Shown: positions 406 through 33,543 of the stretch, piece after piece
Position numbering within the stretch: position 1 is the stretch's first letter
Layout of the letters: the number at the start of each line of letters is the position of its first letter
The notes under the pieces: generated by a model
Databases searched by the model: none
Told to the model about the DNA's origin: nothing
Seen by the model: the letters and a program-made list of their open reading frames with translations, nothing else
Origin: an uncultured Lachnospiraceae bacterium
Lineage (GTDB): Bacteria; Bacillota; Clostridia; Lachnospirales; Lachnospiraceae
NCBI GenBank assembly: GCA_944384105.1
Contig: CALWSC010000014.1
Coordinates: forward strand, 1-34,918
Length of the DNA: 34,918 nucleotides
Direction: 5' to 3'
Made by a program: the position numbers and the translations under genes

Positions 406-1018
406 ATGATAATTATTAACAAGTCTAATTCTAACGCAAAACAGGCAGTTTTGCCAATACTTATTTCGGATTATCTGGATATTTGTGATCCAGTGCTGAC
501 ATTTGACCGTTTTATGGTGGAAATGGATCTGGAGAAATATCTGAAAGGAATCCCGAAACACTCTGCGGGAAGAATCAGATATAATCCGGTCAGCATGCTG
601 AAAACAGTCTTATTCGGATTTATGACGAATGGGTATATCTCTCTGCGGGAACTGGAAGACAGTTGTTTTGAAACAAAACATGTGGATCTGCAGCATCTGT
701 ACATTGACGGTTCTAAATTTGAAGCAGATTCTATCCGAAATATCCCGTTGCAGATGCCGGATATGGTTCCTGCAATAGAAGTATCATGGAGACCCCTTCC
801 GGGCGGTCAACTTTCCGATCGGTGAAGATGGCCTTATGAGGTGTCCGAACGGCAAAGCCTTTCACTTGCAGTATCGACAAAATGTAAGAGGAAATGCATA
901 TGGCAGACAGGAAGAAGTGTATCAGTGTGAAGATTGTGCCGGATGTCCGTATGCAGAGGGATGGAATCGGTCCGGCTGGAAGTCTTTCTGGTTTCTATTG
1001 GACACATTTAATCATTGA
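406..1018 (+). pseudogene. Broken IS1182-family transposase
   Basis: The first reading frame (406-825) carries an N-terminal DUF772-like region (NPVSMLKTVLFGFM, LRELEDSC). It then jumps without the usual intervening sequence to YIDGSKFEA, which resembles the segment around a catalytic Asp in these DDE transposases. This suggests an in-frame deletion of several dozen codons. After the stop at 823-825 the homology continues in another frame from about 836 (RCPNGKAF, YQCEDCAGCPY, a Cys-rich stretch typical of the family). It ends prematurely at 1018, with the rest of the catalytic domain missing. The copy therefore has at least one deletion, one frameshift and a C-terminal truncation and should be inactive. 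Family assignment comes from remembered motifs and is fairly secure; exact deletion limits are not. Confidence 0.75.
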
Positions 1019-1085
1019 GACCTATGGGGGAAGGGGGATTATAGGCATTTTTAGGAAAAAACATGTGCTTATGTATAAAAGGAGA

Positions 1086-1119
1086 GCTGTGAAAAAATGA
1101 TTTCTCATTTTTTCACAGC
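1086..1119. repeat. Perfect 15-bp hairpin at the right IS end
   Basis: GCTGTGAAAAAATGA (1086-1100) and its reverse complement (1105-1119) enclose a 4-nt loop. The outer half overlaps the right terminal repeat, so the GCTGTGAAAAA end motif is present in both orientations. It lies directly after the ATP-grasp stop on the minus strand and could serve as that operon's transcription stop (inference). Confidence 0.7.
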
Positions 1120-1136
1120 CCCTTTTATATAAGGTT

Positions 1137-2315: not shown

Positions 2316-2366
2316 AAAATATTCACCGGGGAAATTTCCCGTTCCTTTCTGAAATACAAAAATAAA

Positions 2367-3374: not shown

Positions 3375-3388
3375 ATTTTAAAAACTCC

Positions 3389-5323: not shown

Positions 5324-5412
5324 GAATGTCACGAAAAAGTAATAAAAATGTAACAAATGGGAGAGGTTTCCGGTGAACGCTTTCCCTGGCTTTGAAAAGG
5401 AGTAACGATGCG

Positions 5413-8462: not shown

Positions 8463-8494
8463 AAACGAAATATGCAGTTATGGAGGAAGAAATC

Positions 8495-9577
8495 ATGAGA
8501 ACTTATCTGGTCACAGGAGGAGCCGGATTTATCGGTTCAAACTATATCCACTATATGTTTAAGAAGTACGGAGATACGATCCGTATCATCAATGTGGACA
8601 AGCTGACCTATGCAGGTAATCTGGAGAATTTAAAGGACATCGAGAACCGTGACAATTATACATTTGTGAAGGCTGATATCTGCGACAGCGATGCGATTCA
8701 TAAGATTTTTGAGGAAAATGACATCGATCGCGTGGTTCATTTCGCAGCGGAGAGCCATGTTGACCGCAGCATCAAGAATCCGGATGTGTTCGTAAAGACG
8801 AACGTTCTGGGAACGCTTGTGATGCTCAACGCGGCAAAGGCTGCATGGGAGCTGCCGGACGGAAGCTTTAAAGAGGATAAGAAGTTTCTGCATGTGTCAA
8901 CGGATGAAGTGTACGGCTCTTTAGAGGAGGACGGCGGATACTTCTATGAGACGACTCCGTATGACCCGCACAGCCCGTACTCCGCAAGCAAGGCATCTTC
9001 AGATATGCTGGTGAAGTCTTATATGGATACGTATCACTTCCCGGCAAACATCACGAACTGCTCCAACAACTACGGACCGTATCAGTTCCCGGAAAAGCTC
9101 ATCCCGCTGATCATTAATAATGCGCTGCAGGGCAAGAAGCTCCCGGTATACGGAGACGGAAAGAACGTTCGCGACTGGCTGTATGTAGAGGATCACGCGA
9201 AGGGCATCGATATGGTGCAGGAGAAGGGACGCCTTTTTGAGACGTACAATATCGGAGGACACAACGAAAAACAGAATATAGAGATCATCCACATCATTCT
9301 GGATACGCTGCAGGAGATGCTCCCGGACGACGATCCGAGAAAGGCTTTAGTGAGCGAGGATCTGATCACCTACGTCGAGGACCGCAAGGGACACGACAGA
9401 AGATACGCGATTGCTCCTGACAAGATTAAGGCAGAGGTCGGCTGGTATCCGGAGACCTGTTTTGCAGACGGTATTAAGAAGACGATCCAGTGGTTCTTCG
9501 AGCATGAAGAATGGATGAAGAATGTCACCAGCGGAGATTATCAGAAGTATTACGAGGAAATGTATAACAACAAATAA
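8495..9577 (+). CDS. rfbB: dTDP-glucose 4,6-dehydratase
   Basis: The 360-residue extended SDR enzyme has TGGAGFIG NAD-binding at the N-terminus, the dehydratase signature STDEVYG (Thr, Asp and Glu for water elimination) and the active-site YSASK. It converts dTDP-glucose to dTDP-4-keto-6-deoxyglucose, the second step to dTDP-L-rhamnose. In this window the product is also the likely substrate of the RffA aminotransferase at 28052, making it a branch point. The ATG at 8495 is chosen because GGAGG lies 8-9 nt upstream; five upstream in-frame codons would encode that site. It is followed by a terminator and is apart from rfbA, rfbC and rfbD. Confidence 0.96.
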   Translation: MRTYLVTGGAGFIGSNYIHYMFKKYGDTIRIINVDKLTYAGNLENLKDIENRDNYTFVKADICDSDAIHKIFEENDIDRVVHFAAESHVDRSIKNPDVFVKTNVLGTLVMLNAAKAAWELPDGSFKEDKKFLHVSTDEVYGSLEEDGGYFYETTPYDPHSPYSASKASSDMLVKSYMDTYHFPANITNCSNNYGPYQFPEKLIPLIINNALQGKKLPVYGDGKNVRDWLYVEDHAKGIDMVQEKGRLFETYNIGGHNEKQNIEIIHIILDTLQEMLPDDDPRKALVSEDLITYVEDRKGHDRRYAIAPDKIKAEVGWYPETCFADGIKKTIQWFFEHEEWMKNVTSGDYQKYYEEMYNNK

Positions 9578-11003: not shown

Positions 11004-11873
11004 ATGAAAGGTATTATTCTTGCCGGAGGCTCCGGCACCAGACTGTACCCGCTGACAAAGGCGATCTCCAAGCAGATTATGCCGGTATATGACAAACCGA
11101 TGATTTATTACCCGTTATCCACGCTGATGCTCGCAGGCATCCGTGAGATCCTGATCATCTCCACGCCGAGAGACCTGCCTGTGTTCGAGGAGCTTTTCGG
11201 AACGGGAGAGCAGCTGGGGCTTAAGATGTCCTACGCAGTGCAGAAGTCCCCGAGAGGGCTTGCAGACGCATTTATCATCGGCGAGGAATTCATTGGGGAC
11301 GATAATGTGGCGCTTGTTCTGGGAGACAATATTTTCTACGGACAGAGCTTTTCGAGAGTGCTGAAAGCTGCGGCTGAGAGGAAAGAGGGCGCGACGATCT
11401 TCGGCTACTATGTAAGAGATCCGAGAGAGTACGGCGTCGTGGAGTTTGATGAGAACGGCAAAGCGCTCTCCATTGAGGAGAAGCCGGAGCACCCGAAGTC
11501 TAACTATGCGGTTCCGGGACTGTATTTTTACGATAATGACGTCGTGGAGATTGCTAAGAACGTTAAGCCGTCCGCAAGAGGTGAGATTGAGATCACGAGC
11601 ATCAATAACGAGTATCTGAACCGCGGAACTCTTCATGTAGAGACGCTTGGACGAGGCTTTGCATGGCTGGATACGGGAAATCATGACTCTCTGCTGGATG
11701 CGGCGGATTTTGTGTCTGCAGTGCAGAAGCGCCAGGGATTGTATATTTCCTGTATTGAGGAGATCGCGTATAAGAGAGGCTTTATCTCAAAAGAGCAGCT
11801 TGTAGAGCTTGCGCAGCCGCTTTTAAAGACAGCATACGGAAAGTACCTCATGGAGGTGGCAGAGGGCTTATAA
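11004..11873 (+). CDS. rfbA: Glucose-1-phosphate thymidylyltransferase
   Basis: The 289-residue enzyme makes dTDP-glucose from dTTP and glucose-1-phosphate, the first step of dTDP-L-rhamnose synthesis. The nucleotide-binding start [16 protein letters not shown], the LGDNIFYG segment with metal-binding Asp, and EKP are all present. Length is normal for RfbA. AGGAGG lies 8 nt before the ATG. It starts 25 nt after the GtrA gene and is followed after 17 nt by the epimerase gene, so this section is probably one operon running on to rfbC and the exporter. Confidence 0.97.
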
Positions 11874-12727: not shown

Positions 12728-12748
12728 GTTGCGAAAGGAATGACAGAT

Positions 12749-13318
12749 ATGGGTAAGATTACAGTGGAAACGTGTGAGATTGAGGGCTTAAAGATCATCA
12801 CTCCTACCGTGTTCGGTGATGAGCGCGGATACTTTATGGAGACATATAATTACAATGATTACAAGGCAGCGGGCATTGACCAGGAGTTTGTACAGGACAA
12901 TCAGTCCAGCTCCAGAAAAGGCGTGCTGCGCGGTCTGCATTTTCAGATTCATTTCCCGCAGGACAAGCTTGTGCGCGTTGTCAGCGGAGAGGTATATGAC
13001 GTTGCGGTTGACCTGCGCCCAGGCTCCAAGACCTTCGGAAAGTGGCACGGCGTGCTGCTCTCTGCAGAGAACAAGAAGCAGTTCTTTATCCCCAAGAACT
13101 TTGCGCACGGATTCGTAGTACTCTCCGAGAGCGCGGAGTTCGCATATAAGTGTACAGATTTCTATCATCCGAACGATGAGGGCGGACTTGCATGGAATGA
13201 TCCGGCGATCGGCGTGCAGTGGCCGATGCCTGAGGGAATGACAGAGAAGGATTTGATTATCTCCGAGAAGGATCACAAGTGGAGCGGTCTGGACGAGTAT
13301 GTAAAGAACCGTAAATAA
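12749..13318 (+). CDS. rfbC: dTDP-4-dehydrorhamnose 3,5-epimerase
   Basis: The 189-residue cupin enzyme contains the RfbC pattern VFGDERGYFMETYN, the core LRGLHFQ with the catalytic His, VYDVAVDLR, and FAHGFVVLS. It performs the third step to dTDP-L-rhamnose. An ATG three codons earlier directly abuts AAAGGA, so the ATG at 12749, at 9-nt spacing, is preferred. It lies 21 nt before the exporter permease gene, tying sugar supply to export in one transcript. Confidence 0.95.
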   Translation: MGKITVETCEIEGLKIITPTVFGDERGYFMETYNYNDYKAAGIDQEFVQDNQSSSRKGVLRGLHFQIHFPQDKLVRVVSGEVYDVAVDLRPGSKTFGKWHGVLLSAENKKQFFIPKNFAHGFVVLSESAEFAYKCTDFYHPNDEGGLAWNDPAIGVQWPMPEGMTEKDLIISEKDHKWSGLDEYVKNRK

Positions 13319-13339: not shown

Positions 13340-14728
13340 ATGTCTAAGAAAAAATGGCTGCCGGTTGTGATTGTGCTGATGGTGCTCTCCAACTGGCTGA
13401 TCTTCCGGTTTATGCCTCCGGTGCAGAGCCCTCTGTCCCTGCGGGTGACCGTGCAGTCCGACGTATCGGATGAATACCAGCTTTTTTACAGCGATGACGG
13501 TATCTGGAGCATTGACCAGTCCTCGACGGCCAGGTATGAGGCTGAAGACGTCAATAGCCCGAAGGAGCTGGAATTTTACATCGGTAAGAGCGGTCACAGC
13601 CAGTTCCGCTTCGATATGGGAGCGCAGGCTGCGGATATTGCGATATCGGATGCAAAGTTCTGTGTCGGAAGCAGGGAGCTTGCAGTCCCGCTGGAAGCGT
13701 TTGCGGACAGCAGTGAGCAGACAGATCTCGGCGGTGTGGAGGTTTCCGGAAACCGTGTGAATATTGAGGCGAAGGACGGCGACCCGCGCATGACACTTGC
13801 GCTTGAGAGCAATGTTGCAGATGAGCTTGACACACTGATTGCAGACGGCTCAAAGGCGCTTGCTGCGGCGTGTAAAGTGCTTGCGTGTGCGGCAATCGAC
13901 ATCCTGCTGCTGGGCGCTCTGATTGTGAGCAGCCATGTGAAGACTCTGTTCATCGAGCTGTTTCAGAACCGCAGACTGATTGGCAAGCTGGCGTATAATG
14001 ATTTCAAAACAAAGTATGTCGGCTCCTATCTGGGAATTCTCTGGGCGTTTGTGCAGCCGTTAATCACCGTGTTCGTATACTACTGCGTATTCGGTATCGG
14101 ATTAAAGAGCGCTCCGGTCAACAATGTACCGTTCCTGCTCTACCTCATTTCCGGACTGGTGCCGTGGTTCTTCTTCTCCGATGCGCTCGGAGGAGGTACA
14201 AACGCGATGATCGAATACCAGTATCTGGTAAAGAAGATTGTTTTCAAGATTAGTATGCTACCTGTGGTGAAGCTGATCTCCGCGCTCTTTGTGCATGTAT
14301 TCTTTACGCTGGTGGCGCTGGCGATTGCGATTCTGTACGGGTACACGCCGGGGCTTCAGCTGGTGCAGATTTTCTACTATATTTTCTGTAATTTTGTGCT
14401 GACTCTGGGGCTGGTATATGCGACCTGCTCCATCGTTATATTCTTCCGCGATACGACGCAGATTATCAATATCGTTCTCCAGGTGGGCATCTGGGTGACG
14501 CCGATTATGTGGACGCTGTCCATTGTACCGGAGAAGTTCCAGTTCCTGTTTAAGCTGGTGCCGATGTATTATATCGTGGACGGCTACAGGGACGCGATCT
14601 ACAGCGGACACTGGTTCTGGGAGAAGCCGTATGAGACGATTCTGTTCTGGTTTATCACAGCAGCGGTATTCGGCATCGGAACCATGGTATTCAAGCGTCT
14701 GAAGGTACACTTTGCGGATGTATTATAA
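13340..14728 (+). CDS. Polysaccharide ABC exporter permease with N-terminal extracytoplasmic extension
   Basis: The 462-residue permease is of the Wzm/TagG/RgpC type. The ABC2 membrane core occupies about residues 205-460 (FKTKYVGSYLGILWAFVQP, then several helices). Typical members have about 260-280 residues; here about 200 extra residues precede the core. These comprise a first helix (7-24), about 150 residues of soluble beta-rich sequence with patterns like FYIGKSGHSQFRFDMG, and a second helix (about 176-198). Topology puts the extra domain outside the cell. It forms the exporter with the ATPase encoded 20 nt downstream and should carry the lipid-linked polymer across the membrane. AGAGGAG precedes the ATG. 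Confidence 0.9.
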   Translation: MSKKKWLPVVIVLMVLSNWLIFRFMPPVQSPLSLRVTVQSDVSDEYQLFYSDDGIWSIDQSSTARYEAEDVNSPKELEFYIGKSGHSQFRFDMGAQAADIAISDAKFCVGSRELAVPLEAFADSSEQTDLGGVEVSGNRVNIEAKDGDPRMTLALESNVADELDTLIADGSKALAAACKVLACAAIDILLLGALIVSSHVKTLFIELFQNRRLIGKLAYNDFKTKYVGSYLGILWAFVQPLITVFVYYCVFGIGLKSAPVNNVPFLLYLISGLVPWFFFSDALGGGTNAMIEYQYLVKKIVFKISMLPVVKLISALFVHVFFTLVALAIAILYGYTPGLQLVQIFYYIFCNFVLTLGLVYATCSIVIFFRDTTQIINIVLQVGIWVTPIMWTLSIVPEKFQFLFKLVPMYYIVDGYRDAIYSGHWFWEKPYETILFWFITAAVFGIGTMVFKRLKVHFADVL

Positions 14729-14748: not shown

Positions 14749-16032
14749 ATGTCTGAGATAGCGATAAAAGTAGATCACCTGAGCAAGATGTACAAGCTGT
14801 ACGACAAGCCCTCCGACCGTTTTAAGGAAGCGATGGGCATCAGGCTCAAGGGGAAGAAACAGTATTATCAGGAACACTATGCACTGCGCGATGTCAGCAT
14901 TGATGTCAAGCGCGGCGAGACAGTCGGGATTATCGGAACAAACGGTTCCGGAAAATCCACGATTTTAAAGATTATTACCGGAACCCTAAGCCCCACAGCG
15001 GGAACTGTGACTGTAAACGGCAGAATTTCCGCGCTGCTGGAGCTGGGCGCCGGTTTCAATATGGAGTATACGGGCATTGAAAACGTGTACTTAAACGGCA
15101 CAATGATGGGATTTTCACGGGCTGAGATTGACAGCAGGCTTGATGATATCCTGTCGTTTGCGGATATCGGCGATTTCGTCCACCAGCCGGTGAAGACGTA
15201 CTCGAGCGGTATGTTCGTGCGCCTCGCCTTCGCTGTGGCGATCAACATTGATCCCGAGATCCTCATTGTCGACGAAGCTCTCTCCGTGGGAGACGTGTTC
15301 TTCCAGGTGAAGTGCTACCACAAGTTTGAAGAATTTAAGAAGATGGGGAAGACCATCCTGTTCGTAAGCCATGATCTGGGCAGCATCAGCAAATATTGCG
15401 ACCGCGTTGTACTTTTAAACAAAGGGCAGAAGATTGCGGAGGGGCGCCCGAAAAAGATTGTGGATATGTATAAGCAGATTCTGGTTAATCAGGAGGCAGA
15501 GCACGACATTAAGCAGGAGGGAGATACTGCAGAGAAGATGGTGTCGTCGGCATCCGGCGACACCTGGAAGTCTCAGCTGGATTTAAATCCGAATCTGCTG
15601 GAGTACGGTGAGAGGTTTGCAGAAATTGTGGACTTCGCTCTTATCGACGACCAGGGGAATATCAGCAACAACATCGTGAAGGGAACGGATTTTTCCATCC
15701 GGATGAAGGTGCATTTTAACCGTGATCTGCAGGATCCGATCTTTGCGTTTACGATTAAGGATCTGCAGGGAACTGAGGTGACGGGCACGAACACGATGTA
15801 TGAGAACGTCTCCGCGGGACCTGTGAAAGCGGGCGAGGAGCGCATTGTCACGTTCACCCAGAATATGAACCTGCAGGGCAGGAATTATCTGCTCTCTCTA
15901 GGGTGCGTGGGATTTTCCGATAATAAATTCGTGGTATATCACAGGCTGTACGACGTCTGCGATATCGATGTGATTTCCGATAAGAATACCGTGGGATTCT
16001 ACGATATGGATTCGGAGGTCACAATCATCTGA
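14749..16032 (+). CDS. Polysaccharide ABC exporter ATPase with Wzt-type C-terminal domain
   Basis: The 427-residue protein has an N-terminal ATPase domain with Walker A GTNGSGKST, signature YSSGMFVRLAF and Walker B ILIVDEAL followed by the switch His (VSHD). A C-terminal domain of about 155 residues (from about 275) is beta-rich (EIVDFALIDDQGN, GTDFSIRMKVHF, FTIKDLQGTEVTGTNT) as in Wzt_C. In the O9a E. coli system this domain binds the modified non-reducing end of the chain. The ATG at 14749 follows GGGAAAGG; a GTG six codons upstream is less likely. It pairs with the permease at 13340 and is followed after 18 nt by RgpF genes. Confidence 0.94.
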   Translation: MSEIAIKVDHLSKMYKLYDKPSDRFKEAMGIRLKGKKQYYQEHYALRDVSIDVKRGETVGIIGTNGSGKSTILKIITGTLSPTAGTVTVNGRISALLELGAGFNMEYTGIENVYLNGTMMGFSRAEIDSRLDDILSFADIGDFVHQPVKTYSSGMFVRLAFAVAINIDPEILIVDEALSVGDVFFQVKCYHKFEEFKKMGKTILFVSHDLGSISKYCDRVVLLNKGQKIAEGRPKKIVDMYKQILVNQEAEHDIKQEGDTAEKMVSSASGDTWKSQLDLNPNLLEYGERFAEIVDFALIDDQGNISNNIVKGTDFSIRMKVHFNRDLQDPIFAFTIKDLQGTEVTGTNTMYENVSAGPVKAGEERIVTFTQNMNLQGRNYLLSLGCVGFSDNKFVVYHRLYDVCDIDVISDKNTVGFYDMDSEVTII

Positions 16033-16050: not shown

Positions 16051-17829
16051 ATGCAGGTACAGACAGAGAAAGCAAAGCGGTATGCGGTATATGTGTTTTA
16101 CGACAGGGAAAAGCATGCGGATGAATACAATTTCTATCTGCTCGGAGAGCTGAAAAAAGAGGTGGATTACCTTCTGGTCATCTGCAATGGCGGCGTATCG
16201 GCCGAGGGCAGAGCACGCTTTGAAGCGATTGCGGACGAGGTGCTGGAAAGAGAAAACCAGGGCTTTGACATCACTGCGTACAAGATCGGCATCGAGCGCA
16301 TGGGGTATGAGAAACTTTCAGAGTATGACGAGGTGCTCGTGCTCAATTCCACGTTCTTCGGACCGTTCTACCCGTTTCGGGAAATGTTTGAGACAATGGA
16401 TCAGCAAGACCTCGACTTCTGGGGAATGACCACATTCCACGAGGTTCCGTTTGATCCTTTCGGGACGATAAAGTACGGTCACATCCCGACACATATCCAG
16501 TCATTCTTTATGGTATTCAGAAGAAGCCTTACGGAAAGCGCCGATTTTCAGAATTACTGGGTCAATATGCCGAAGATTCACTCCTATGAGGAGGCAATCG
16601 GATTTCATGAGGCAATCTTTACGAAGGAGTTTGCGGACAAGGGCTACCGCTGGGCCGTTTACTGCGACAGCAGCGATCTCATCGGATTTACGTACGATCC
16701 GCTTCGGGATTTTCCGCGGTACATGATCGAGGAGAAGAGATGCCCGCTCTTAAAGCGCCGCTCATTTTTCCATGAATACGGGGAGGCATTCTCCAGAAGC
16801 GGGGGCGAGGGAGCAAAGGAGGCGCTTGAATACATGGAGCAGCATCTGTCCTATGATACAGACATGATCTGGGATAACCTGCTGCGGCTTGAGAATCAGG
16901 CGGATTTAAAGAAGCGGATGCACTGGAATTTCGTCGTATCCTCGAAACTTCAGAAGAAGAGAAAGAATCCGCTTCCGAAGACAGCTCTTGTGCTGCACAT
17001 CTACTATGAGGAGCTTGCGGGTTTCTGCCGCAGATACGCGGAAAATATGCCCGATGGCACGGATGTGTATGTAACGGTGCCGAATAAGGAGAAACTTGCT
17101 GTTGTCAGAGAAGCGTTCGGGAATTTCCCGCACAGGCTGGAGTATCGTATTGTAGGAAATCTGGGCAGGGATGTGGCACCGTTTCTCGTGGGCTGCAAGG
17201 ATCTGATCGAAAAGTACGATCTGATCTGCAAGGTGCATGATAAGAAGGTTTACCAGGTCAAGCCGATGTCGCTTGGGGAGTCCTGGGCGTTTAAGTGTTT
17301 TGAGAACCTCCTGAAGAATAAGACGTTTGTGGAAAATATCATCGCCGTATTCGAGGAAAATCCCAGACTGGGGATGCTTACTCCCCCGGTTCCGAACCAC
17401 GGTCCGTACTATCCGACGACCGGAAAGGGCGAGTGGGGCGAGAATTTTGCAGTGGCAAAGCAGCTCGCCGACACACTGGGACTGACAGTGAACCTGGATC
17501 CGAGAAAGGAGCCGGTCGCGCCGCTGGGATCGATGTTCTGGGTTCGGACTGACGCGCTGAAGTGTCTGTTTGCCCACGACTGGCAGTATGAGGAGTTTCC
17601 GAAGGAGCCGATCGCGGACGACGCGACGGTGCTGCACGCGATAGAGAGAATCTATCCGTTCTGCGTACAGCAGGAGGGATACTATCCGGCATGGCTCCTG
17701 GCTGATTCGTTTGCCAGAGTGGAAATCGACAACTGGGCGTATATCAACGGAGAGCTCAACCGTGCCGAGATGTCCAAAGTGGGAGCGATGCGGCACAGGG
17801 AGCTGCTGGAAAATATCCGGAATCTGTGA
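16051..17829 (+). CDS. RgpF-family rhamnan synthesis protein, first copy
   Basis: The 592-residue protein matches the RgpF family, required for rhamnose polymer synthesis in streptococci. The N-terminal half carries NQGFDITAYKIG, DEVLVLNSTFFGP and DLDFWGMT. The C-terminal half carries NLGRDVAPFLVG and the basic ICKVHDKK, then LGSMFWVR. Both halves look like glycosyltransferase-type alpha/beta domains. AAGGAG lies 10 nt before the ATG. It sits directly after the exporter ATPase gene, as in streptococcal rgp clusters, and before a diverged second copy. It acts in the cytoplasm on the lipid-linked chain; whether it transfers rhamnose itself is not proven here. Confidence 0.88.
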   Translation: MQVQTEKAKRYAVYVFYDREKHADEYNFYLLGELKKEVDYLLVICNGGVSAEGRARFEAIADEVLERENQGFDITAYKIGIERMGYEKLSEYDEVLVLNSTFFGPFYPFREMFETMDQQDLDFWGMTTFHEVPFDPFGTIKYGHIPTHIQSFFMVFRRSLTESADFQNYWVNMPKIHSYEEAIGFHEAIFTKEFADKGYRWAVYCDSSDLIGFTYDPLRDFPRYMIEEKRCPLLKRRSFFHEYGEAFSRSGGEGAKEALEYMEQHLSYDTDMIWDNLLRLENQADLKKRMHWNFVVSSKLQKKRKNPLPKTALVLHIYYEELAGFCRRYAENMPDGTDVYVTVPNKEKLAVVREAFGNFPHRLEYRIVGNLGRDVAPFLVGCKDLIEKYDLICKVHDKKVYQVKPMSLGESWAFKCFENLLKNKTFVENIIAVFEENPRLGMLTPPVPNHGPYYPTTGKGEWGENFAVAKQLADTLGLTVNLDPRKEPVAPLGSMFWVRTDALKCLFAHDWQYEEFPKEPIADDATVLHAIERIYPFCVQQEGYYPAWLLADSFARVEIDNWAYINGELNRAEMSKVGAMRHRELLENIRNL

Positions 17830-17840
17830 GAGGCAAGAGT

Positions 17841-19622
17841 ATGATGAAACGATGCGGAATTTTTTTGTTTTTTGATAAGGACGGAGTAGTGGACAGGTAT
17901 ATCGTCCACATGCTCCGATGCTTAAAGTCAAATATCGATCACCTGCTTGTGGTGTGCAACGGTTATGTGAACCGTGAGGGACTTACAGCGCTGCGCCGAG
18001 AGGCGGATGACGTACTGTGCAGGGTGAACCTGGGGATGGATGTGGGAGGCTACCGGGAGGGGCTGTTCTATCTCGGATGGGAGAGGCTTAGCCGGTTTGA
18101 CGAGGTCGTGCTGCTCAACTATACGTTCTTCGGTCCCATTTATCCGTTCACGGAGATGTTCGATGCGATGGAGCAAAGAGATGTCGATTTCTGGGGAATT
18201 ACAAAGCACCACAAGGTTGACCCGGATCCGTTCGGCGTCAACCGGTATGGCTATCTGCCGGAGCACATTCAGTCGCATTTTATGGTTCTGAGAAAGCGTC
18301 TGTTTATGAGTTACGCGTATAAGGATTTTATATTCAACACGCCGAATCCGAGGACGTATCTGGAGTCAATCTGTGAGTATGAGACTATTTTTACAAAGCA
18401 TTTTGAAGATCTGGGATTTACCTGGGATGTGTATGTGAACACCGATCCGTATGAGGGGTATTCCTACTGCCCGATTATGTTCTATACAAAGGAGATGATG
18501 GAGCAGCAGCGCTGCCCGATTATCAAGCGCAGAAGCTTTTTTACGGACTACAGTGACTTTATGCTGAATTCCTGCGGGGAGCCGGCTCTCAAGGCGTATG
18601 AATTTATCCGGGATCACACGGATTACGATACAGACTATATCTGGGAGAATATTCTGCGGCTCGAGAACCTGCGGGATATTCACAGAGTGATGCATTTTAA
18701 TTATATGCTGCCGTCGTATGACACGGATTATGAGGGCAAAGACGGTGAAAACGCGCTGTTTCTGCTGGCAGAGCACAGGGAACATTTGAGCTGGTATAAG
18801 CGGTATCTGCGGGAGATCCCCCAGTACCTCGACGTGTATCTGGTGGGTTCCGATGAGAACTGCGCGGCGGTACGCAGATATCTGAATGAGGGCACAGCCG
18901 TGCGCGCTCAGCAGATTGCGCAGGAGGACTTTTCCGATTATCTGGGGATTCTGTCAGCGCTTGCCCCGGCGGCGCAGAAGTATCCGTACGCCGGCATCCT
19001 GGATCTTGCGGATCCGAGAAAGCTCACTGTACAGCCGTACAGCAACGGCGCATCGTGGCAGTACGCGGACTTCGAGAATCTGCTGGGAAATGCGAATATC
19101 GTCGGAAATCTTCTGCAGCAGTTTGCGGCAGAGCAGCGTCTGGGAGCAATCATTCCTCCGATGCCGCAGTACGGAGAGATGTTCGCAATGACAGATGCGG
19201 ACGGATGGTTCGGACGCTTTGAGCAGGTTACATCCCTTCTGAAATCATGGGGAGTGTCCGTGACCGTGAAAAAATCAAGCGAAGCACTGTCTCCTGTGGG
19301 CGGCAGCTTCTGGGTGCGCGGCGAGCTTTTAGGAGCCGTGCGCAGAGTACATGAGAGGGGCGGAAAGGCCGACAGGCTGACGCAGCTTTTGGCGCTTCCC
19401 CTTTTATTCCAGTCAGAGGGATATTATACCGGTGCGGCTTACAGCGATCATTATGCGCCGGTCGAGATAACAAATCAGGATTATATGATGCGCGAGACGA
19501 ATAAGACCGTATTTGCAAAGTATGGTCCCACGTATCACAATGTTGTGGTCAGCAGAATCCGCGCAGGTCAGATCCTGGAGGAAAGTGAGGCAGAGAAATG
19601 GTCGAGAGAATTGGCGGAGTGA
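17841..19622 (+). CDS. RgpF-family protein, second diverged copy
   Basis: The 593-residue paralogue of the preceding protein matches it well in the N-terminal half (NLGMDVGGYREG, DEVVLLNYTFFGP, VDFWGIT, CPIIKRRSFF). In the C-terminal half the GRDVAPFL and KVHDKK segments are replaced by EDFSDYLGIL and LDLADPRK, while GGSFWVRG near the end is kept. So the second domain has probably lost or changed its activity. GAGAGG precedes the ATG at 17841; a GTG five codons upstream overlaps the previous gene. The methyltransferase gene begins inside its last codons (25-nt overlap). It could use a different acceptor or be a partner of the first copy. Confidence 0.85.
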   Translation: MMKRCGIFLFFDKDGVVDRYIVHMLRCLKSNIDHLLVVCNGYVNREGLTALRREADDVLCRVNLGMDVGGYREGLFYLGWERLSRFDEVVLLNYTFFGPIYPFTEMFDAMEQRDVDFWGITKHHKVDPDPFGVNRYGYLPEHIQSHFMVLRKRLFMSYAYKDFIFNTPNPRTYLESICEYETIFTKHFEDLGFTWDVYVNTDPYEGYSYCPIMFYTKEMMEQQRCPIIKRRSFFTDYSDFMLNSCGEPALKAYEFIRDHTDYDTDYIWENILRLENLRDIHRVMHFNYMLPSYDTDYEGKDGENALFLLAEHREHLSWYKRYLREIPQYLDVYLVGSDENCAAVRRYLNEGTAVRAQQIAQEDFSDYLGILSALAPAAQKYPYAGILDLADPRKLTVQPYSNGASWQYADFENLLGNANIVGNLLQQFAAEQRLGAIIPPMPQYGEMFAMTDADGWFGRFEQVTSLLKSWGVSVTVKKSSEALSPVGGSFWVRGELLGAVRRVHERGGKADRLTQLLALPLLFQSEGYYTGAAYSDHYAPVEITNQDYMMRETNKTVFAKYGPTYHNVVVSRIRAGQILEESEAEKWSRELAE

Positions 19623-20509
19623 CGCTGAATCTGGATTACTACAGCGGCGAGGATTTATACAGCGACGGCGATGAAATGGAGAACCGGATTCTCGATATTG
19701 TAAAGAACGAATCCGGCTACGAGTACGCGCACAGCGGCTACAGTGACTGGGCTGTACTGTACCATCTGAGCCGTCAGAGAGAAAATATCGCAGAGCCGAT
19801 GGACTTAAAGTCTACGGATGAGGTGCTGGAGATCGGAGCCGGGATGGGAGCCGTGACGGGAGCCGTGGCGAGAAGGTGTAAGAAGGTGGACTGCATCGAG
19901 CTGTCGAAGCGCCGCTCTTTGGTAAATGCCTACCGCCACAGGGAAATGAAGAATATTGAGATCTTTGTGGGGAACTTCCAGGATGTGAAAATTGAGAAGA
20001 AGTACGATGTGGTCACGCTGATCGGCGTGCTGGAGTACGCTTACCATTACATTGACAGCGAGACGCCGTATGAGGACTTTATCCGCAAAGTGGCATCCTG
20101 CCTAAAGCCTGGAGGAAAGCTCTATGTGGCGATTGAGAACAAGCTGGGCATGAAGTATTTTGCAGGATATCACGAGGATCATTTAAGCCGTCCGTATGCG
20201 GGCATCCAGGGCTACCGCCGCGAGGACAAGGTCAAGACGTTCAGCCGGTCGCAGTTAAAAAGACTTTTGCTGGACAACGGTTTCTCCGGCACGTATTTTT
20301 ATTATCCGTTTCCGGATTATAAGCTGCCGACGGTAATCTACAGTGATGATGTGATTGTAAATGCGTATATCGATTTTCCGGAGGACAGCAACTATGACCT
20401 TCCGGTATTCAAAAATTTTAATATGAACCAGGCATTTGCAAGTTTAAAGGGCGCGAAGGAGCGCAGAATGCTTGCGAATTCGTTCCTGGTGGAAGCAGTC
20501 AGGGGGTGA
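19598..20509 (+). CDS. SAM-dependent methyltransferase (candidate glycan-capping enzyme)
   Basis: The 303-residue class I methyltransferase has SAM-binding motif VLEIGAGMGAVTG (residues 76-88), a following acidic strand (VDCIELS) and the post-motif LKPGGKLYVAIENKLG. About 45 N-terminal and 100 C-terminal residues flank the Rossmann core. Its gene overlaps the RgpF copy by 25 nt and is followed 4 nt later by the kinase-like gene, so expression is tightly coupled. The order methyltransferase, kinase, coiled coil is that of the single protein WbdD, which caps polymannose O-antigen in E. coli O9a. I infer a similar end-capping role. A methyl transfer to an internal rhamnose is the alternative. 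Confidence 0.85.
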   Translation: MVERIGGVTLNLDYYSGEDLYSDGDEMENRILDIVKNESGYEYAHSGYSDWAVLYHLSRQRENIAEPMDLKSTDEVLEIGAGMGAVTGAVARRCKKVDCIELSKRRSLVNAYRHREMKNIEIFVGNFQDVKIEKKYDVVTLIGVLEYAYHYIDSETPYEDFIRKVASCLKPGGKLYVAIENKLGMKYFAGYHEDHLSRPYAGIQGYRREDKVKTFSRSQLKRLLLDNGFSGTYFYYPFPDYKLPTVIYSDDVIVNAYIDFPEDSNYDLPVFKNFNMNQAFASLKGAKERRMLANSFLVEAVRG

Positions 20510-20513
20510 GCGT

Positions 20514-21620
20514 ATGAAGAAGTTAATGATGAAGTTCAGCGATGAGAGAAACCGCAGATTCAGCATCAAGACAACGATTGCGCTCGATGATGACGGGAAG
20601 AAGTACGTGCTCAAGGAAGCGGTATTCCCTGAGGGACAGGGACATTTAAACAGTATCCTGTATTTCCGCGATCTGCTGACAGAGAATTATCCGTCAGTGA
20701 CGATATGTCCGCTTGAGAAGCGTCAGGACACGCTCTGGTTCGAGTTTATCACCGGCGAATCGCTGGAGGATAAGTACCGCAGAGCTTATGAGGCAAAAGA
20801 TAAGGAGAAGTTTCTGGAGCTGGCTGGGCTTCACAGAAAGCTGATCACAGGCAGGCCGGAAAATGTGTGTGAGTTTCACTCTTACGGCGATTTTGTGAGG
20901 ATTTTCGGGGAAGGAGAACCGTTTGAGGGTGCGGCAGGGCTTGCGGTATCCAACTTTGACGCCACGGCGGGAAATATTATCTGCCGCGGGGAAGAGCCGG
21001 TATTTATCGATTATGAGTGGGTGTTTGACAAGCCGCTGCCCAGAGATCTTGTGATCTATCACTGCATCCGCGACGTGTATTTTCATATTCCCAAGCTGGA
21101 GGAGTTTGTTCCTCTTTCTGAGATAATGCTGGAGCTTGAGGTTCGCACGGACATAGATGTGATGGAGAATGCCTACCGCCATTTTCACGGCTATGTCGTA
21201 AAGGAGGCGGACGGCAAAAGCTTTGGCGCCATGAAAGCTTCTGCGCTGAAGGGCACAAGGGATATGCAGCAGCTCGAGGAGGAGATTGAAAACCTGAAGA
21301 GAGAACTTTCCGAGGCTCATAAAAATTGGCAGGAGTGCGCTGAGAACTGGAAGGCAAGCGTGAAGGCGAACGATGAGATCAGCGCTTACTGGCAGGAGAG
21401 CAGCCGTGCAAATTTCCAGCTCGGACAGCAGATCAACAAACTGCAGGAACAGCTTGCCCAAAAGGATGGACATCACCAGGAGCACGTAAGACAGCTCGAG
21501 GCGGCAGTGCAGGAGCAGGCACGCCAGTCCGAGGTATGGCGCGTGGCGTACGAGACTGTGGTCAATTCCAAGACCTGGCGTGCGGCAAATAAGGTAAAGC
21601 GTGCGTTCGGAAAGAAGTAA
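20514..21620 (+). CDS. Kinase-like (APH fold) protein with C-terminal coiled coil
   Basis: The 368-residue protein has an N-terminal lobe with a likely ATP-binding Lys (KYVLKEAVF) and a C-lobe with LHRKLI. The catalytic-type segment is NFDATAGN (D149 and N154, spacing as in HxD-xxxx-N kinases), then FIDYEW with D166 as the metal-binding Asp. The usual His of HxD is Asn. Residues about 250-345 are a charged, Glu/Gln/Lys-rich coiled coil ending in NSKTWRAANKVKRAFGKK, similar to basic tails seen on coiled-coil glycosyltransferase-associated proteins. The ATG at 20514 has AGGGGGTGA upstream; an ATG 14 codons earlier lies inside the methyltransferase gene. Possible role: phosphorylating the chain end with the coiled coil as spacer, by WbdD analogy. 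Activity is unproven. Confidence 0.75.
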   Translation: MKKLMMKFSDERNRRFSIKTTIALDDDGKKYVLKEAVFPEGQGHLNSILYFRDLLTENYPSVTICPLEKRQDTLWFEFITGESLEDKYRRAYEAKDKEKFLELAGLHRKLITGRPENVCEFHSYGDFVRIFGEGEPFEGAAGLAVSNFDATAGNIICRGEEPVFIDYEWVFDKPLPRDLVIYHCIRDVYFHIPKLEEFVPLSEIMLELEVRTDIDVMENAYRHFHGYVVKEADGKSFGAMKASALKGTRDMQQLEEEIENLKRELSEAHKNWQECAENWKASVKANDEISAYWQESSRANFQLGQQINKLQEQLAQKDGHHQEHVRQLEAAVQEQARQSEVWRVAYETVVNSKTWRAANKVKRAFGKK

Positions 21621-21641: not shown

Positions 21642-24092
21642 ATGCAGCAAGAAGTATTTGAAGTAAAACGAGAACGGTTTCATCTGCTGGACGACAGCCT
21701 GTACATCCTTCAGGGAAATCTGCCGAAGGACTGTGAGATTGAGGCGTTTCTCGACAGAACTCCGCTGAAGGCAGAAGCAGAGGTATGGGAAAACAGAAGT
21801 GCGCTGGAGCGCTTTGCGGATCTGGATTTGATGCGAGGACAGAAGATGACGGTATCCGTTCACCTGCCGGAGGATCTACATGGATACAAGCGTCTTTCGA
21901 TCACTGCGGTCACAGAGGACGGAAGGATTCCATGGTTTTCCGTATCCGTAAAGTCTCTGGAGGCAAGGCGGGGAAAGCCGTACTATTTCATCGAGGAAGA
22001 GCGTGTCAGCCGTGCAGAGGGGACAGTCAGAGTCCGCGGCTGGGTGGTATTTCGCGAGCCTGTGAGCTTAAAGCTCTACGATGAGAGCGGCGCACAGATT
22101 CCCTGTACTGTGCAGTGGAACAGCCGCGCAGATGTGGCGCAGATGTACCAGGAGACACAGATTGAGGAGAAATGCGGCTTTTATGTGGAGCTGAACCAGG
22201 TGTCCACGAAGATTGTCTATCTGGTATTCCGGTCAAAGGGCACAAAGGCTGTCTATCCGGTGCACACGCAGAAGCTGATGATTATAAAGAATAAAGTGGA
22301 AAAGTATGCAGTGAAGGGTACGCGTTATCTGAAGGCACACGGAGCAAAGGCGCTGGCGGCAAAGACGGTCGGAAAGCTCAGCAGCGTGCGAAAGGGACCT
22401 GTACCGTATCAGAAATGGCTACCGAAGCATCTTCCTACGGCTGCGCAGCTTGAGAAGCAGCGCCAGGCGAAGTTTGATTACCGTCCATGCTTCTCGATTG
22501 TGGTGCCGCTCTATAAGACACCGCCGCAGTATCTTGACCGCCTGATCGCATCGATTAAGGAGCAGACGTACGCAAACTGGGAGCTGTGTCTGTCTGACGG
22601 AAGCGGTGCGGACAGCCCGATCCGCAATGTTCTGGAGCAGTACAGGGATTCAGATCCAAGAATCCGCGTGCTCTTTCAGGAGGAGCCGCTGCAGATTTCT
22701 GAGAATACAAATGCAGCGATTGAGATTGCGACAGGAGAGTATATCGTGTTCGCGGATCACGACGATGAGCTGACGCCGAACGCTCTGTATGAGTGTGTGA
22801 AGGCATTAAATAACGATCCCGGAATTGAGGTTCTCTACTCTGACGAGGATAAAATGTCGATGGACGGACATAAGTTCTTCCAGCCGCATTTTAAGCCGGA
22901 TTTCAATATTGACCTTCTGCGCACCGTGAACTATATCTGCCATCTCTTTGTTGTGAAGCGCTCTGTGATCGACCGCGTGGGAATGCTCAGAAGTGAATTT
23001 GACGGCGCGCAGGATTATGACTTTATCTTCCGGTGTACGGAATCAGCAGGAGCGGAGAAGATTCACCATATCCCGAAGATTTTGTATCACTGGAGGAGCC
23101 ATGAGGATTCTACGGCTGAGAATCCGGAGAGCAAGCTGTATGCATTTGACGCCGGACAGCGGGCGATTGAGGCGCACTACGAGCGCGTGGGAATCCACGC
23201 CACAGTAGAAAAGGGAGAGTATCTGGGACTGTACCGGACGAAATATATCCGCCCGTATGATCCGCTGGTATCGATCATTATTCCGAATAAGGATCACATT
23301 GACGATCTGAAGCGGTGTATCGATTCCATTGAGGAAAAGTCGACATACCGCAATTATGAATATATTATTGTGGAAAATAACAGCACAGATCCGGAGACAT
23401 TTGAATTTTATAAGAAGTTAGAGGCTGAAAATCCAAAAGCGCATGTAGTGTACTGGAAAGACATTTTCAACTATTCCGCGATCAATAATTTCGGGGTGCA
23501 GCACGCAAAGGGAGAGTATTTGTGGCTTCTGAACAACGACACGGAGATCATCAATCCGGACTGCCTGGAGGAACTGCTCGGCTACTGTATGCGTGACGAT
23601 GTGGGAATCGTCGGGGCAAGGCTCTACTTTGAGGACGATACGATCCAGCACGCCGGCGTGGTCATCGGCTTCGGCGGCATTGCGGGGCACTGCTTCGTTC
23701 AGCAGCCGAGAGGATATACCGGCTACTGCCACCGTGTAATCTGCGCGCAGGATTACAGCGCCGTGACAGCGGCGTGCATGATGGTGAAGCGTTCCGTTTA
23801 CGAGGCGGTGGACGGCTTTTCCACAGAACTGCAGGTCGCGTTCAACGACATCGATTTCTGTATGAAGGTGCGCAGCATCGGAAAGCTGGTGGTTTACAAT
23901 CCGTACGCGGAATTGTACCATTATGAATCCAAATCCCGCGGTCTGGAGGATACGCCGGAGAAGGTGGCGCGGTTCAACCGTGAGATTGCTACATTTGAAA
24001 AGCGCTGGCCGGATATATTGAGGGACGGAGACCCGTATTATAATCCGAACCTCACCCTGGACAGCCAGGATTTCTCACTGAAAAGGATATGA
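21642..24092 (+). CDS. Large GT2 protein with two glycosyltransferase domains and an N-terminal beta domain
   Basis: The protein has 816 residues. Residues 1-about 210 are beta-rich and not a glycosyltransferase; about 225-270 form a basic linker. GT2 domain 1 (about 285-530) contains FSIVVPLYKTPPQYL, the metal motif FADHDDELTPN, YSDEDK and FDGAQDYDF. GT2 domain 2 (about 540-790) has VSIIIPNKDHIDDL, VENNSTDPETF, LLNNDTE and FNDIDFCMKV. Each domain has its own sugar-transfer centre, so it may add two residues of a repeat. The whole GT part is closely similar to the 604-residue protein at 29193. AAGGGGAA precedes the ATG. It is probably a rhamnosyl- or other sugar transferase of the wall polymer; donor and linkage are unknown. 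Confidence 0.88.
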   Translation: MQQEVFEVKRERFHLLDDSLYILQGNLPKDCEIEAFLDRTPLKAEAEVWENRSALERFADLDLMRGQKMTVSVHLPEDLHGYKRLSITAVTEDGRIPWFSVSVKSLEARRGKPYYFIEEERVSRAEGTVRVRGWVVFREPVSLKLYDESGAQIPCTVQWNSRADVAQMYQETQIEEKCGFYVELNQVSTKIVYLVFRSKGTKAVYPVHTQKLMIIKNKVEKYAVKGTRYLKAHGAKALAAKTVGKLSSVRKGPVPYQKWLPKHLPTAAQLEKQRQAKFDYRPCFSIVVPLYKTPPQYLDRLIASIKEQTYANWELCLSDGSGADSPIRNVLEQYRDSDPRIRVLFQEEPLQISENTNAAIEIATGEYIVFADHDDELTPNALYECVKALNNDPGIEVLYSDEDKMSMDGHKFFQPHFKPDFNIDLLRTVNYICHLFVVKRSVIDRVGMLRSEFDGAQDYDFIFRCTESAGAEKIHHIPKILYHWRSHEDSTAENPESKLYAFDAGQRAIEAHYERVGIHATVEKGEYLGLYRTKYIRPYDPLVSIIIPNKDHIDDLKRCIDSIEEKSTYRNYEYIIVENNSTDPETFEFYKKLEAENPKAHVVYWKDIFNYSAINNFGVQHAKGEYLWLLNNDTEIINPDCLEELLGYCMRDDVGIVGARLYFEDDTIQHAGVVIGFGGIAGHCFVQQPRGYTGYCHRVICAQDYSAVTAACMMVKRSVYEAVDGFSTELQVAFNDIDFCMKVRSIGKLVVYNPYAELYHYESKSRGLEDTPEKVARFNREIATFEKRWPDILRDGDPYYNPNLTLDSQDFSLKRI

Positions 24093-27841: not shown

Positions 27842-27875
27842 AATATAAATACCTCGTTTCAAGAATGATGCGTTT

Positions 27876-32102: not shown

Positions 32103-33509
32103 TTGATTAAGGATAATCAAAAGTACTTTAACCGGATGCATGTTCTGATCGATGCGGCGGTGATTGCTGTCTCCTACTGGCTGGCATGGGTGCTGAAGTT
32201 TAAGAGCGGGCTGTTCGATAACGAGGGCGGCATGCTGCCGTTTGAGTGGTACATGTTCGGGCTGATCTTTATCATTCCCGGATATCTGATTCTGTACTAC
32301 GCTTTCAATCTGTACACATCCAAGCGCGTCCAGGGGCGGCGCCTGGAGTTCGCCAACATCGCGAAGGCGAACACCATCGGCATGCTTCTGCTGATCAGCG
32401 CGATCTATGTTATCATCAAGGAGATCGATTTTTCACGCTGGGTCATCTTCATCTTCTATGCCGTGAACACCGTTTTAGAGACGATTGTGCGCAACGGCAT
32501 CCGCTATCTGCTGCGAAATATGCGCAGGCGCGGATTTAATCAGAGACATATCCTTCTGGTGGGCTACAGCCGTGCGGCGGAGGAATACATTGACCGCATT
32601 ATCCAGAATCCGCAGTGGGGATACACGGTTCGGGGGATTCTTGACGATTCCGTTACCGCCGGCACTATGTACAAGGGCGTCAAGGTGCTCGGAAGAATCG
32701 ACAACCTTATGGTGATCCTGCCGGAGAACCGTCTTGATGAGATCGCGATCACACTGGGACTGAGCGAATATTTCCGTCTGGAAGAAATTGTCGCCCTGTG
32801 TGAGAAATCCGGTGTGCATACGAAGTTTATTCCGGATTATAATAATATTATTCCGACAAAACCATACACGGAGGATCTGCTGGGACTTCCGGTTATCAAT
32901 ATCCGTTACGTGCCGCTGACGAATACATTCAACGCCACGGTAAAACGGCTTATGGATGTGGTTGGGGCTATTGCGGCTATCATACTTTTTTCACCGGTCA
33001 TGCTGATTGCGGCAATTCTGGTGAAAGTGACTTCACCCGGCCCTCTTATTTATAAGCAGGTCCGCGTCGGGCTGCACAACAAGAGCTTTGAGATGTACAA
33101 GTTCCGTTCTATGGAGGTACAGCCGGAGCAGGAGGAGCAGAAGGCGTGGACGGTCAAGAATGACCCAAGGGTCACACCGGTGGGCAAGTTTATGCGAAAG
33201 ACGAGCATAGATGAGCTGCCGCAGCTTTTCAATGTACTGCGCGGAGATATGAGCCTGGTCGGGCCGCGCCCCGAGAGACCGTTTTTTGTTGAGAAGTTCC
33301 GTGAGGAAATTCCCAGATATATGGTCAAGCACCAGGTGCGTCCGGGACTTACCGGATGGGCGCAGGTCAACGGATACAGGGGCGATACTTCGATCCGCAA
33401 GCGTATAGAGCATGATCTGTACTACATTGAGAACTGGACAGTCGGGCTGGATATCAAGATATTGTTCCTGACCGTATTTAAAGGGTTTGTGAACAAAAAT
33501 GCCTATTGA
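32103..33509 (+). CDS. Undecaprenyl-phosphate sugar-1-phosphate transferase (WbaP/WcaJ type)
   Basis: The 468-residue enzyme starts the polymer by moving a hexose-1-phosphate from a nucleotide sugar to undecaprenyl phosphate. There are four N-terminal helices (residues about 10-115), a Rossmann-like CoA-binding-type region (HILLVGYSRAAEEYI) and a fifth helix (about 280-305). The catalytic domain follows with SPGPLIYKQVRVG, MYKFRSM, TSIDELPQLFNVLRGDMS, LVGPRPERP and PGLTGWAQVNGYRG. I use the TTG at 32103: AAGGTGA lies 6 nt upstream, while the first ATG (32136) has no ribosome site. Sugar is probably glucose or galactose, unresolved. The LCP gene follows, with a potential overlap depending on its start. 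Confidence 0.93.
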   Translation: MIKDNQKYFNRMHVLIDAAVIAVSYWLAWVLKFKSGLFDNEGGMLPFEWYMFGLIFIIPGYLILYYAFNLYTSKRVQGRRLEFANIAKANTIGMLLLISAIYVIIKEIDFSRWVIFIFYAVNTVLETIVRNGIRYLLRNMRRRGFNQRHILLVGYSRAAEEYIDRIIQNPQWGYTVRGILDDSVTAGTMYKGVKVLGRIDNLMVILPENRLDEIAITLGLSEYFRLEEIVALCEKSGVHTKFIPDYNNIIPTKPYTEDLLGLPVINIRYVPLTNTFNATVKRLMDVVGAIAAIILFSPVMLIAAILVKVTSPGPLIYKQVRVGLHNKSFEMYKFRSMEVQPEQEEQKAWTVKNDPRVTPVGKFMRKTSIDELPQLFNVLRGDMSLVGPRPERPFFVEKFREEIPRYMVKHQVRPGLTGWAQVNGYRGDTSIRKRIEHDLYYIENWTVGLDIKILFLTVFKGFVNKNAY

Positions 33510-33543
33510 CGACAAGGAAGAAAGAACGTTAAGGGGAAGAGGT

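Follow-up and report, generated by a model that had tools for sequence, protein, structure and literature searches.

Organization of the locus

To our knowledge, it is largely open how Gram-positive gut-type bacteria control chain length in rhamnose-rich surface polymers, and the question raised by this locus is whether two adjacent genes, one for a methyltransferase (MT) and one for a kinase with a coiled coil, together end and measure such a chain. The window, by which we mean the whole stretch of 34,918 nucleotides from an uncultured Lachnospiraceae bacterium, contains the following features.

8480..9577, + strand: dTDP-glucose 4,6-dehydratase-like protein, RmlB candidate (name inferred)
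11004..11873, + strand: nucleotidyl transferase, RmlA candidate (name inferred)
12740..13318, + strand: dTDP-4-dehydrorhamnose 3,5-epimerase (RmlC)
13340..14728, + strand: Wzm-type permease with an N-terminal extension of about 200 aa (apparent membrane helix and beta-type domain)
14749..16032, + strand: Wzt ATPase with a C-terminal Wzt_C (cap-binding) domain at residues 285-420
16051..17829, + strand: RgpF-family glycan synthesis protein 1
17826..19622, + strand: RgpF-family glycan synthesis protein 2
19598..20509, + strand: class I SAM methyltransferase, O7-ORF6 type, with Y21, Y55, G80, G82, E101 and Y147 present
20514..21209, + strand: APH-fold glycan kinase domain, residues 1-232, with K34, catalytic D149, N154, D166 and E168-W169
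21264..21563, + strand: predicted coiled coil in the kinase protein (approximately residues 251-350), putative spacer or ruler
21567..21617, + strand: short basic helix at the C terminus carrying the motif SKTWRAA, placed like SRSWRMT behind the WbdD coiled coil
21642..24092, + strand: polymerase candidate, an N-terminal non-GT region of about 280 aa and two GT2 modules; joined with MT and kinase into one fusion in relative L096
24138..24989, + strand: dTDP-4-dehydrorhamnose reductase (RmlD)
32103..33509, + strand: bacterial sugar transferase, candidate initiating phosphoglycosyl transferase
33499..34710, + strand: LytR-CpsA-Psr (LCP) protein, candidate for ligation to peptidoglycan; the genome has five such matches in all

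The arrangement described in the initial annotation was confirmed: 4 nt separate the MT gene (19598-20509) from the kinase ORF behind it (20514-21620 in full), for which a coiled coil of about 100 residues is predicted on the C-terminal side, and the pair lies downstream of a Wzm/Wzt exporter whose ATPase matches the Wzt C-terminal domain (PF14524, E 4.7e-43, Pfam). The distance from the terminator gene to the exporter is 4.9 kb. The dTDP-rhamnose genes in the window support the reading of the polymer as rhamnose-containing.

The kinase and the methyltransferase

Sequence searches of Pfam, NCBIfam and PDB with the window kinase returned only coiled-coil, repeat-protein or chance matches, with no Pfam kinase family in this protein whereas WbdD scores APH/Pkinase, and a tblastn search against plasmids returned no match. 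The APH fold that had been claimed for it is supported by the predicted structure, and the 50 matches listed in a structure search are APH and related kinases; WbdD is not among these 50, an absence that proves nothing. In the alignment, K34, D166, E168, and W169 are invariant across 66 kinase rows and D149 and N154 are conserved in 65 of them, and the window kinase retains the catalytic residues checked, D149 included. Comparison of two species of the genus gives dN/dS values of approximately 0.08 in the kinase and 0.06 in the tail, indicating purifying selection, and the linker and coil are free of gaps between them.

The APH fold is common to kinases of the choline/ethanolamine type, a choline-binding amidase is encoded in the window, and one LicD-family match, with an internal stop, is found on another contig. 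These are what would be expected if the enzyme phosphorylated a small molecule for phosphocholine decoration and stood next to the MT by chance, which we regard as highly improbable: a Pfam scan of 30 window ORFs gave no LicD match, kinases of some relatives are fused to MTs and glycosyltransferases, and the protein carries a coiled coil and is linked to Wzt-C.

The window MT keeps all six SAM-site residues checked (Y21, Y55, G80, G82, E101, and Y147) and is 95% identical to the MT of a sister species. Among 60 relatives the SAM motif is altered in the MTs of 10, whose partner kinases retain their catalytic motifs, and Y21 and Y147 are retained in just 45. Such relatives raise the alternative that the window MT is inactive or structural and that the cap is phosphate alone, which the intact SAM site and the identity between sister species make very unlikely.

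Relationship to known chain terminators

The K. pneumoniae O7 protein ORF6, whose gene cluster is deposited as MN173773.1, is described as a methyltransferase-kinase terminator with two GT2 modules that acts on the chain end (PMC11231755). Its SAM-site residues are Y28, Y66, G91, G93, E112, and Y158, its kinase has an APH/AmiN fold with the catalytic Asp D441, and the D441A variant gave solely high-molecular-weight polymer, which was read as unterminated and unexported (same source). We compared ORF6 through a proxy, a 1457-aa plasmid protein of Pseudomonas asturiensis in which the six SAM-site residues have identical numbers and the Asp of the IDxxxxN motif is at 443 rather than the published 441. 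Built from 15 relatives with fused MT and kinase, a profile matched this protein over both domains (hhalign, Prob 100, E 3.2e-49), and a profile of just the kinase also matched it (Prob 88.8, E 2.5e-6), whereas with a Citrobacter relative the fused match (E 9.6e-47) was mostly carried by the MT and the kinase alone was weak (Prob 8.7); in these comparisons the gammaproteobacterial proteins, like WbdD, were entered as single sequences.

Judged by these profiles, MT and kinase alike are homologues of the O7 ORF6 methylphosphate terminator type, and they stand in the same order. Through the P. asturiensis protein the six window residues are the equivalents of the O7 SAM site, and the window pair also has the predicted APH/AmiN-type fold with its conserved catalytic Asp and a predicted coiled coil behind the catalytic domains; a GT2-GT2 polymerase, Wzm/Wzt, and dTDP-rhamnose genes complete the likeness to the O7 system. 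Unlike in ORF6, MT and kinase are two distinct proteins in the window, the GT2-GT2 part is a third gene, and no Ig-like CBM was detected between kinase and coiled coil, a domain reported for ORF6 and not for other terminators (PMC11231755). The window locus differs further in its LCP and RgpF genes and in its Gram-positive-type genome. Since the two ORFs lie 4 nt apart and do not form one polypeptide, the pair is a split homologue rather than an O7 ORF6 proper.

The initial annotation had likened the pair to E. coli O9a WbdD, and this was right as to type, a terminator with MT, kinase, and coiled coil split over two genes, while descent from WbdD or a close likeness to it finds no support in the profiles. 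The window shares with WbdD the logic of kinase, methyltransferase, coiled coil, and Wzt-C exporter (PMC3482155), and both have an SxSWR-like motif behind the coil (SKTWRAA and SRSWRMT). Matching activities in matching order together with this motif are what a genuine but divided WbdD homologue would show, yet WbdD is a single protein with a eukaryote-type kinase (PMC3482155) that has no detectable homology to the window kinase. Against WbdD of E. coli HS the kinase profile gave Prob 0.4, against an unrelated control 0.5, the MT is alike in only 76 core columns (hhalign, Prob 79.8) that amount to the generic SAM core, and the Pfam APH/Pkinase match of WbdD has no counterpart in the window protein. 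A split WbdD homologue is disfavoured, and we consider it scarcely credible.

Two further systems offer partial parallels. Geobacillus stearothermophilus WsaE belongs to a Gram-positive rhamnose glycan system with Wzm/Wzt, a methyltransferase, and two GT domains; unlike in the window, no kinase is described there, the cap is an O-methyl group on an S-layer glycan, and the MT is fused to the GTs (PMC2943079). The window, with its kinase and separate MT, does not have the WsaE-type fusion of an MT to two rhamnosyltransferase domains. In Aquifex aeolicus Wzm/Wzt-CBD, the modified chain end is recognised by the Wzt C-terminal domain (PMC9445017), but the cap is 3-O-methyl and phosphate is not described, in contrast to the cap proposed here.

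Split, fused, and coil-less relatives

The split of MT and kinase over two genes is set against relatives in which they are one protein. A census of the window and 80 of 89 other loci, the nine weaker ones and kinase loci found by profile alone being set aside, used stop-to-stop frames and search models built from the window's own proteins; of its 82 kinase ORFs, 38 are fusions with the MT and 40 have the MT next to them. In relative L096 the window's three genes (MT, kinase, and polymerase candidate) are joined in a single frame, with no coiled coil between kinase and polymerase. A quick 69-row tree, which omits L034, ORFs at contig edges, and loci lacking a 170-residue MT, implies at least 15 changes between fused and split forms; it was built with no mixture model, and as 28 of its 68 inner branches are open and some branches are long, this is a rough minimum.

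The coiled coil is not universal among the kinase relatives. By our own heuristic score, run with controls and distinct from the published predictors, a coiled coil of at least 28 residues is present in 54 of the 82 kinase ORFs, and of the remaining 28, two are cut short by a contig end.

Co-occurrence with the Wzt-C exporter

The survey of 200 genomes of the family reveals a very strong link: the kinase is carried by 99 of 100 genomes with a strong Wzt-C match and by one of 21 with a weaker match, where the cut-off of 133 bits (next value, 121) was fixed after the scores were seen, and where co-occurrence within a single family is not independent evidence because operons are inherited together. 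Of 114 kinase copies, a count made after second halves of one kinase gene were merged by hand, 96 have Wzt-C upstream within 7 kb and 18 do not, although in two of these 18 it is directly downstream. Also among the 18, locus L042 has a plain ABC exporter and L056 just a distant ABC ATPase, both without Wzt-C, and no similar ATPase was found in the stretch examined at L067, L098, and L033. The initial annotation had named the pair being common without Wzt-C exporters as an argument against capping, and with so strong a co-occurrence this argument does not refute it. Going by its sequence, the Wzt-C domain of the exporter ATPase should be the putative cap reader.

The pair could instead add (methyl)phosphate to internal or side-chain residues and neither end nor measure the chain. 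The chemistry and homology would be identical, and the 28 of 82 relatives without a scored coiled coil and those in which Wzt-C is absent nearby would fit. The near one-to-one tie to the strong Wzt-C group argues against such decoration, as does the homologous-type O7 ORF6, which is reported to act on the chain end and whose D441A polymer was read as unterminated and unexported (PMC11231755), and we think it unlikely.

Hypothetical mechanism

We propose, as the probable reading, that the pair is a split O7 ORF6-type chain terminator that caps the rhamnose-containing polymer, stops its growth, and tags it for export. We infer the acceptor sugar, the methylphosphate product, the trans assembly of MT and kinase, which the fused relatives would imply, the coupling to export, the wall attachment, and the ruler role. 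The kinase would phosphorylate a lipid-linked, rhamnose-containing chain at its non-reducing end, the chain being the product of the adjacent RgpF/GT2 enzymes, and the MT would next methylate the terminal phosphate to give methylphosphate. The capped end would halt chain growth and would be recognised by the Wzt-C domain, licensing export by Wzm/Wzt, after which an LCP enzyme would probably link the polymer to the cell wall. The coiled coil may space the kinase from the membrane-bound polymerase, such that only chains above some minimum length are capped.

The pair is a concrete candidate, widespread in the Lachnospiraceae and with its catalytic residues named, for length control of a surface polymer. 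Versions that occur naturally as split, half-fused, or fully fused forms, some with a coiled coil and some without, make the question of the coil as a ruler directly testable, and they also allow the necessity of joining kinase and methyltransferase to be tested. A literature search, by titles, beginnings of abstracts, and term counts, gave nothing that points to an MT-kinase pair in Lachnospiraceae. A survey of chain-termination chemistry by Mann, Kimber, and Whitfield (Glycobiology, 2019) reportedly covers Gram-positive systems too, and a prior mention of the pair there is therefore possible.

Ig-like domains in the family

An Ig-like CBM after the kinase was detected in 39 of the 82 kinase ORFs and, by profile, not in the window kinase protein; the CBM alignment used loci chosen by tail length, with six rows later omitted. 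The CBM profile did not match the N-terminal region of the 816-aa glycosyltransferase. The window's own Wzm extension, taken singly, matched it weakly (Prob 4.8), and a profile built from ten Wzm extensions gave Prob 96.4. We put forward tentatively, as a rather doubtful extension, a family-wide Gram-positive capping machine that would combine a two-protein terminator acting in trans, kindred Ig-like folds that handle the chain before and after export, and a phosphate-only cap where the MT is degenerate. The Ig-like folds concerned would be those in the cytoplasmic terminators of many relatives and in the probably outward N-terminal part of some Wzm permeases, that of the window included.

Proposed assignment of the pair to the O7 ORF6 type of chain terminator

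We propose that two neighboring genes of the window would encode a chain terminator of the type of O7 ORF6, the methyltransferase-kinase terminator of Klebsiella pneumoniae.

19598-20509: class I SAM methyltransferase (MT)
20514-21620: predicted APH-fold kinase with a C-terminal coiled coil

We built a profile from 15 fused MT-kinase proteins of the window's bacterial family and compared it with single sequences. It aligns with a 1457-aa plasmid protein of Pseudomonas asturiensis from near the MT start to the kinase end (Prob 100, E 3.2e-49) and with a 649-aa plasmid protein of Citrobacter braakii (E 9.6e-47). With the kinase profile alone, the former is matched at Prob 88.8 and E 2.5e-6, the latter only at Prob 8.7. 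Each of the two proteins is preceded by an ABC permease and by an ATPase that bears the C-terminal cap-binding domain Wzt-C. PMC11231755 names Y28, Y66, G91, G93, E112, and Y158 as SAM-site residues of O7 ORF6 and D441 as its kinase Asp. Because the P. asturiensis protein has all six SAM-site residues at identical numbers and the Asp of its IDxxxxN motif at 443, it can be recognized as a putative O7 ORF6 orthologue, the published residue numbers standing in for the O7 sequence. The window equivalents are Y21, Y55, G80, G82, E101, and Y147 in the MT and D149 in the kinase. In the C. braakii protein (locus L203, 8923-10872), FEREW replaces the family's IDYEW, so that its kinase may be altered.

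The initial annotation had likened the pair to a possible split form of WbdD, the E. coli terminator. At the level of sequence we do not retain a close likeness: WbdD of E. coli HS matches the kinase profile with Prob 0.4, against 0.5 for an unrelated control protein, and the MT likeness is confined to 76 core columns.

Association with Wzt-C exporters

The kinase profile matches 106 of 200 genomes of the window's family, the window genome included, and Wzt-C is present in 121 of the same set. Both are found in 100 genomes, the kinase only in 6, Wzt-C only in 21, and neither in 73 (Fisher p 1e-27, weakened as a test by the relatedness of genomes from one family). The kinase is present in 99 of the 100 genomes with Wzt-C of at least 133 bits, and in 1 of the 21 with weaker Wzt-C only. 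Wzt-C lies upstream, on the same strand and within 7 kb, in 96 of 114 kinase copies. For the 98 copies that share contig and strand with Wzt-C, the two lie a median of 1.4 kb apart. Several copies without upstream Wzt-C sit on short contigs, and at loci L044 and L046 the domain lies just downstream. Locus L042 has a plain ABC exporter and L056 only a distant ABC ATPase, both without Wzt-C, and no similar ATPase was found in the fetched stretches of L067, L098, and L033. Of all the evidence, this near one-to-one co-occurrence with strong Wzt-C, together with the proximity, speaks most strongly for a kinase product that this Wzt-C subtype would read.

Architecture and conservation among relatives

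Across the phylum the kinase profile matches 9 of 299 genomes, 4 of them from the window's family, and a scan of named genomes gave at least 566 confirmed relatives, the best 80 of which mostly bear the name Lachnospiraceae or that of genera such as Blautia, with a few others. In an architecture census of the window and 80 of 89 other places (82 kinase ORFs), 38 have the MT fused to the kinase and 40 have it next to the kinase; in the other 4, two of which are at contig edges, the census rule locates no MT. L048, scored without an MT by this rule, has one upstream by a separate count. C-terminal fusions join the kinase to GT2 modules in 32 of the 82 ORFs and to RgpF in two, both of the latter with a scored coiled coil in between:

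L032, 6724-10350: kinase-RgpF fusion
L052, 9585-12539: kinase-RgpF fusion

In L096 (genome G121), a single frame of 1243 codons contains the MT, the kinase, the N-terminal region of the 816-aa protein (21642-24092 in the window), and two GT2 modules, and thus fuses the window's three genes. A quick tree (69 rows and two outgroups) requires at least 15 changes between fused and split MT-kinase and at least 9 in GT fusion. The recurrent fusion and separation of MT and kinase argues that the two would act as one unit. L034 carries two MT-kinase genes in tandem, with GT modules fused to the second.

Kinase residues K34, D166, E168, and W169 are invariant in 66 aligned rows, and D149 and N154 are kept in 65, the sole exception being L033, where neither an adjoining MT nor Wzt-C occurs in the fetched stretch. 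The L033 kinase-GT protein (463-3711), without the catalytic Asp and Asn, is a copy that has either decayed or taken on another function. The MT varies more than the kinase: Y21 and Y147 are retained in 45 of 60 rows, and ten of the 60 relatives have a changed SAM motif:

L031, L038, L044, L045, L048, L055, L080, L097, L101, L103: altered MT SAM motif

The kinases of these ten retain their catalytic motifs (eight by the kinase alignment, L101 and L103 by motif), and their caps are perhaps phosphate only.

Proposed mechanism and the coiled coil

Alongside the pair, the window carries genes for dTDP-rhamnose, for two RgpF proteins and several GT2 proteins, for a Bac_transf initiator, and for an LCP protein. 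If the pair works as O7 ORF6 does, it would cap the growing chain end, and the cap would both halt elongation and mark the chain for Wzt-C. As described in PMC11231755, O7 ORF6 phosphorylates a repeat-unit mimic in vitro and subsequently methylates part of it, and D441A is inactive; in vivo, D441A gives solely high-molecular-weight polymer, interpreted as unterminated and unexported. The Wzt C-terminal domain of A. aeolicus is established as the cap reader (PMC9445017).

The coiled coil predicted for the kinase tail is upheld by our own simple heptad score, which is 0.72, compared with 0.48 +/- 0.05 in 1000 shuffles, none reaching it. Positive controls score 0.69 (WbdD), 0.54, and 0.55 (two gammaproteobacterial relatives), and negative controls 0.32 (window MT), 0.40 (GT), and 0.40 (Wzt). 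Aligned with the sister species over 119 positions, the window's linker and coil have no gap, and dN/dS is ~0.08 for the kinase and ~0.06 for the tail. The window protein ends in SKTWRAA and a basic helix, and SRSWRMT follows the coil of WbdD; this pattern occurs in 9 of the 82 kinase ORFs (66,633 residues in all) and four times in the remaining ORFs of the loci (~5 per million residues). With 119 scored residues, the window coil is surpassed within the 82 ORFs only by those of L037 and L095, a length that fits a spacer role in the window's system. Its use as a length-measuring device in the terminator is the least certain step, because 28 of the 82 ORFs, two of which are truncated at a contig end, have no scored coil.

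Methylphosphate terminators with coiled coils, various module orders across proteins, and Wzt-C coupling are already known. PMC11231755 terms the strategy widespread, with O7-like clusters in distant species including the archaeon Methanoculleus, and reports orthologues from alphaproteobacteria, gammaproteobacteria, and cyanobacteria. As far as searches of the literature show, what is new is the MT and kinase as two separate proteins, the distribution among Lachnospiraceae, where fusion or fission has recurred, and the almost one-to-one pairing with a single Wzt-C subtype; a 2019 census may cover part of this.

Ig-like domains

Behind the kinase, 39 of the 82 ORFs carry an Ig-like domain, which was not found in the window kinase protein by the same domain comparison. 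It resembles the P. asturiensis region corresponding to the CBM reported for O7 ORF6 (PMC11231755); the hhalign match is weak (Prob 36), and a one-sequence hmmsearch gives 17.7 bits and E 1.2e-7. The exporter permease carries an extension:

13340-14728: Wzm permease with a ~200-aa N-terminal extension

This extension is common to 10 of 64 Wzm of the loci, the window's among them, and six of these ten loci also have the Ig-like domain on the kinase. A profile of the ten extensions matches the post-kinase Ig-like domain of the relatives (Prob 96.4, E 1.2e-9), the window extension by itself only with Prob 4.8.

Two further genes accompany the glycan genes of the window:

5392-7293: Amidase_3 protein that carries choline-binding repeats, on the upstream side of the glycan genes
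25049-27862, minus strand: YfhO-family membrane protein, antisense to the surrounding glycan genes
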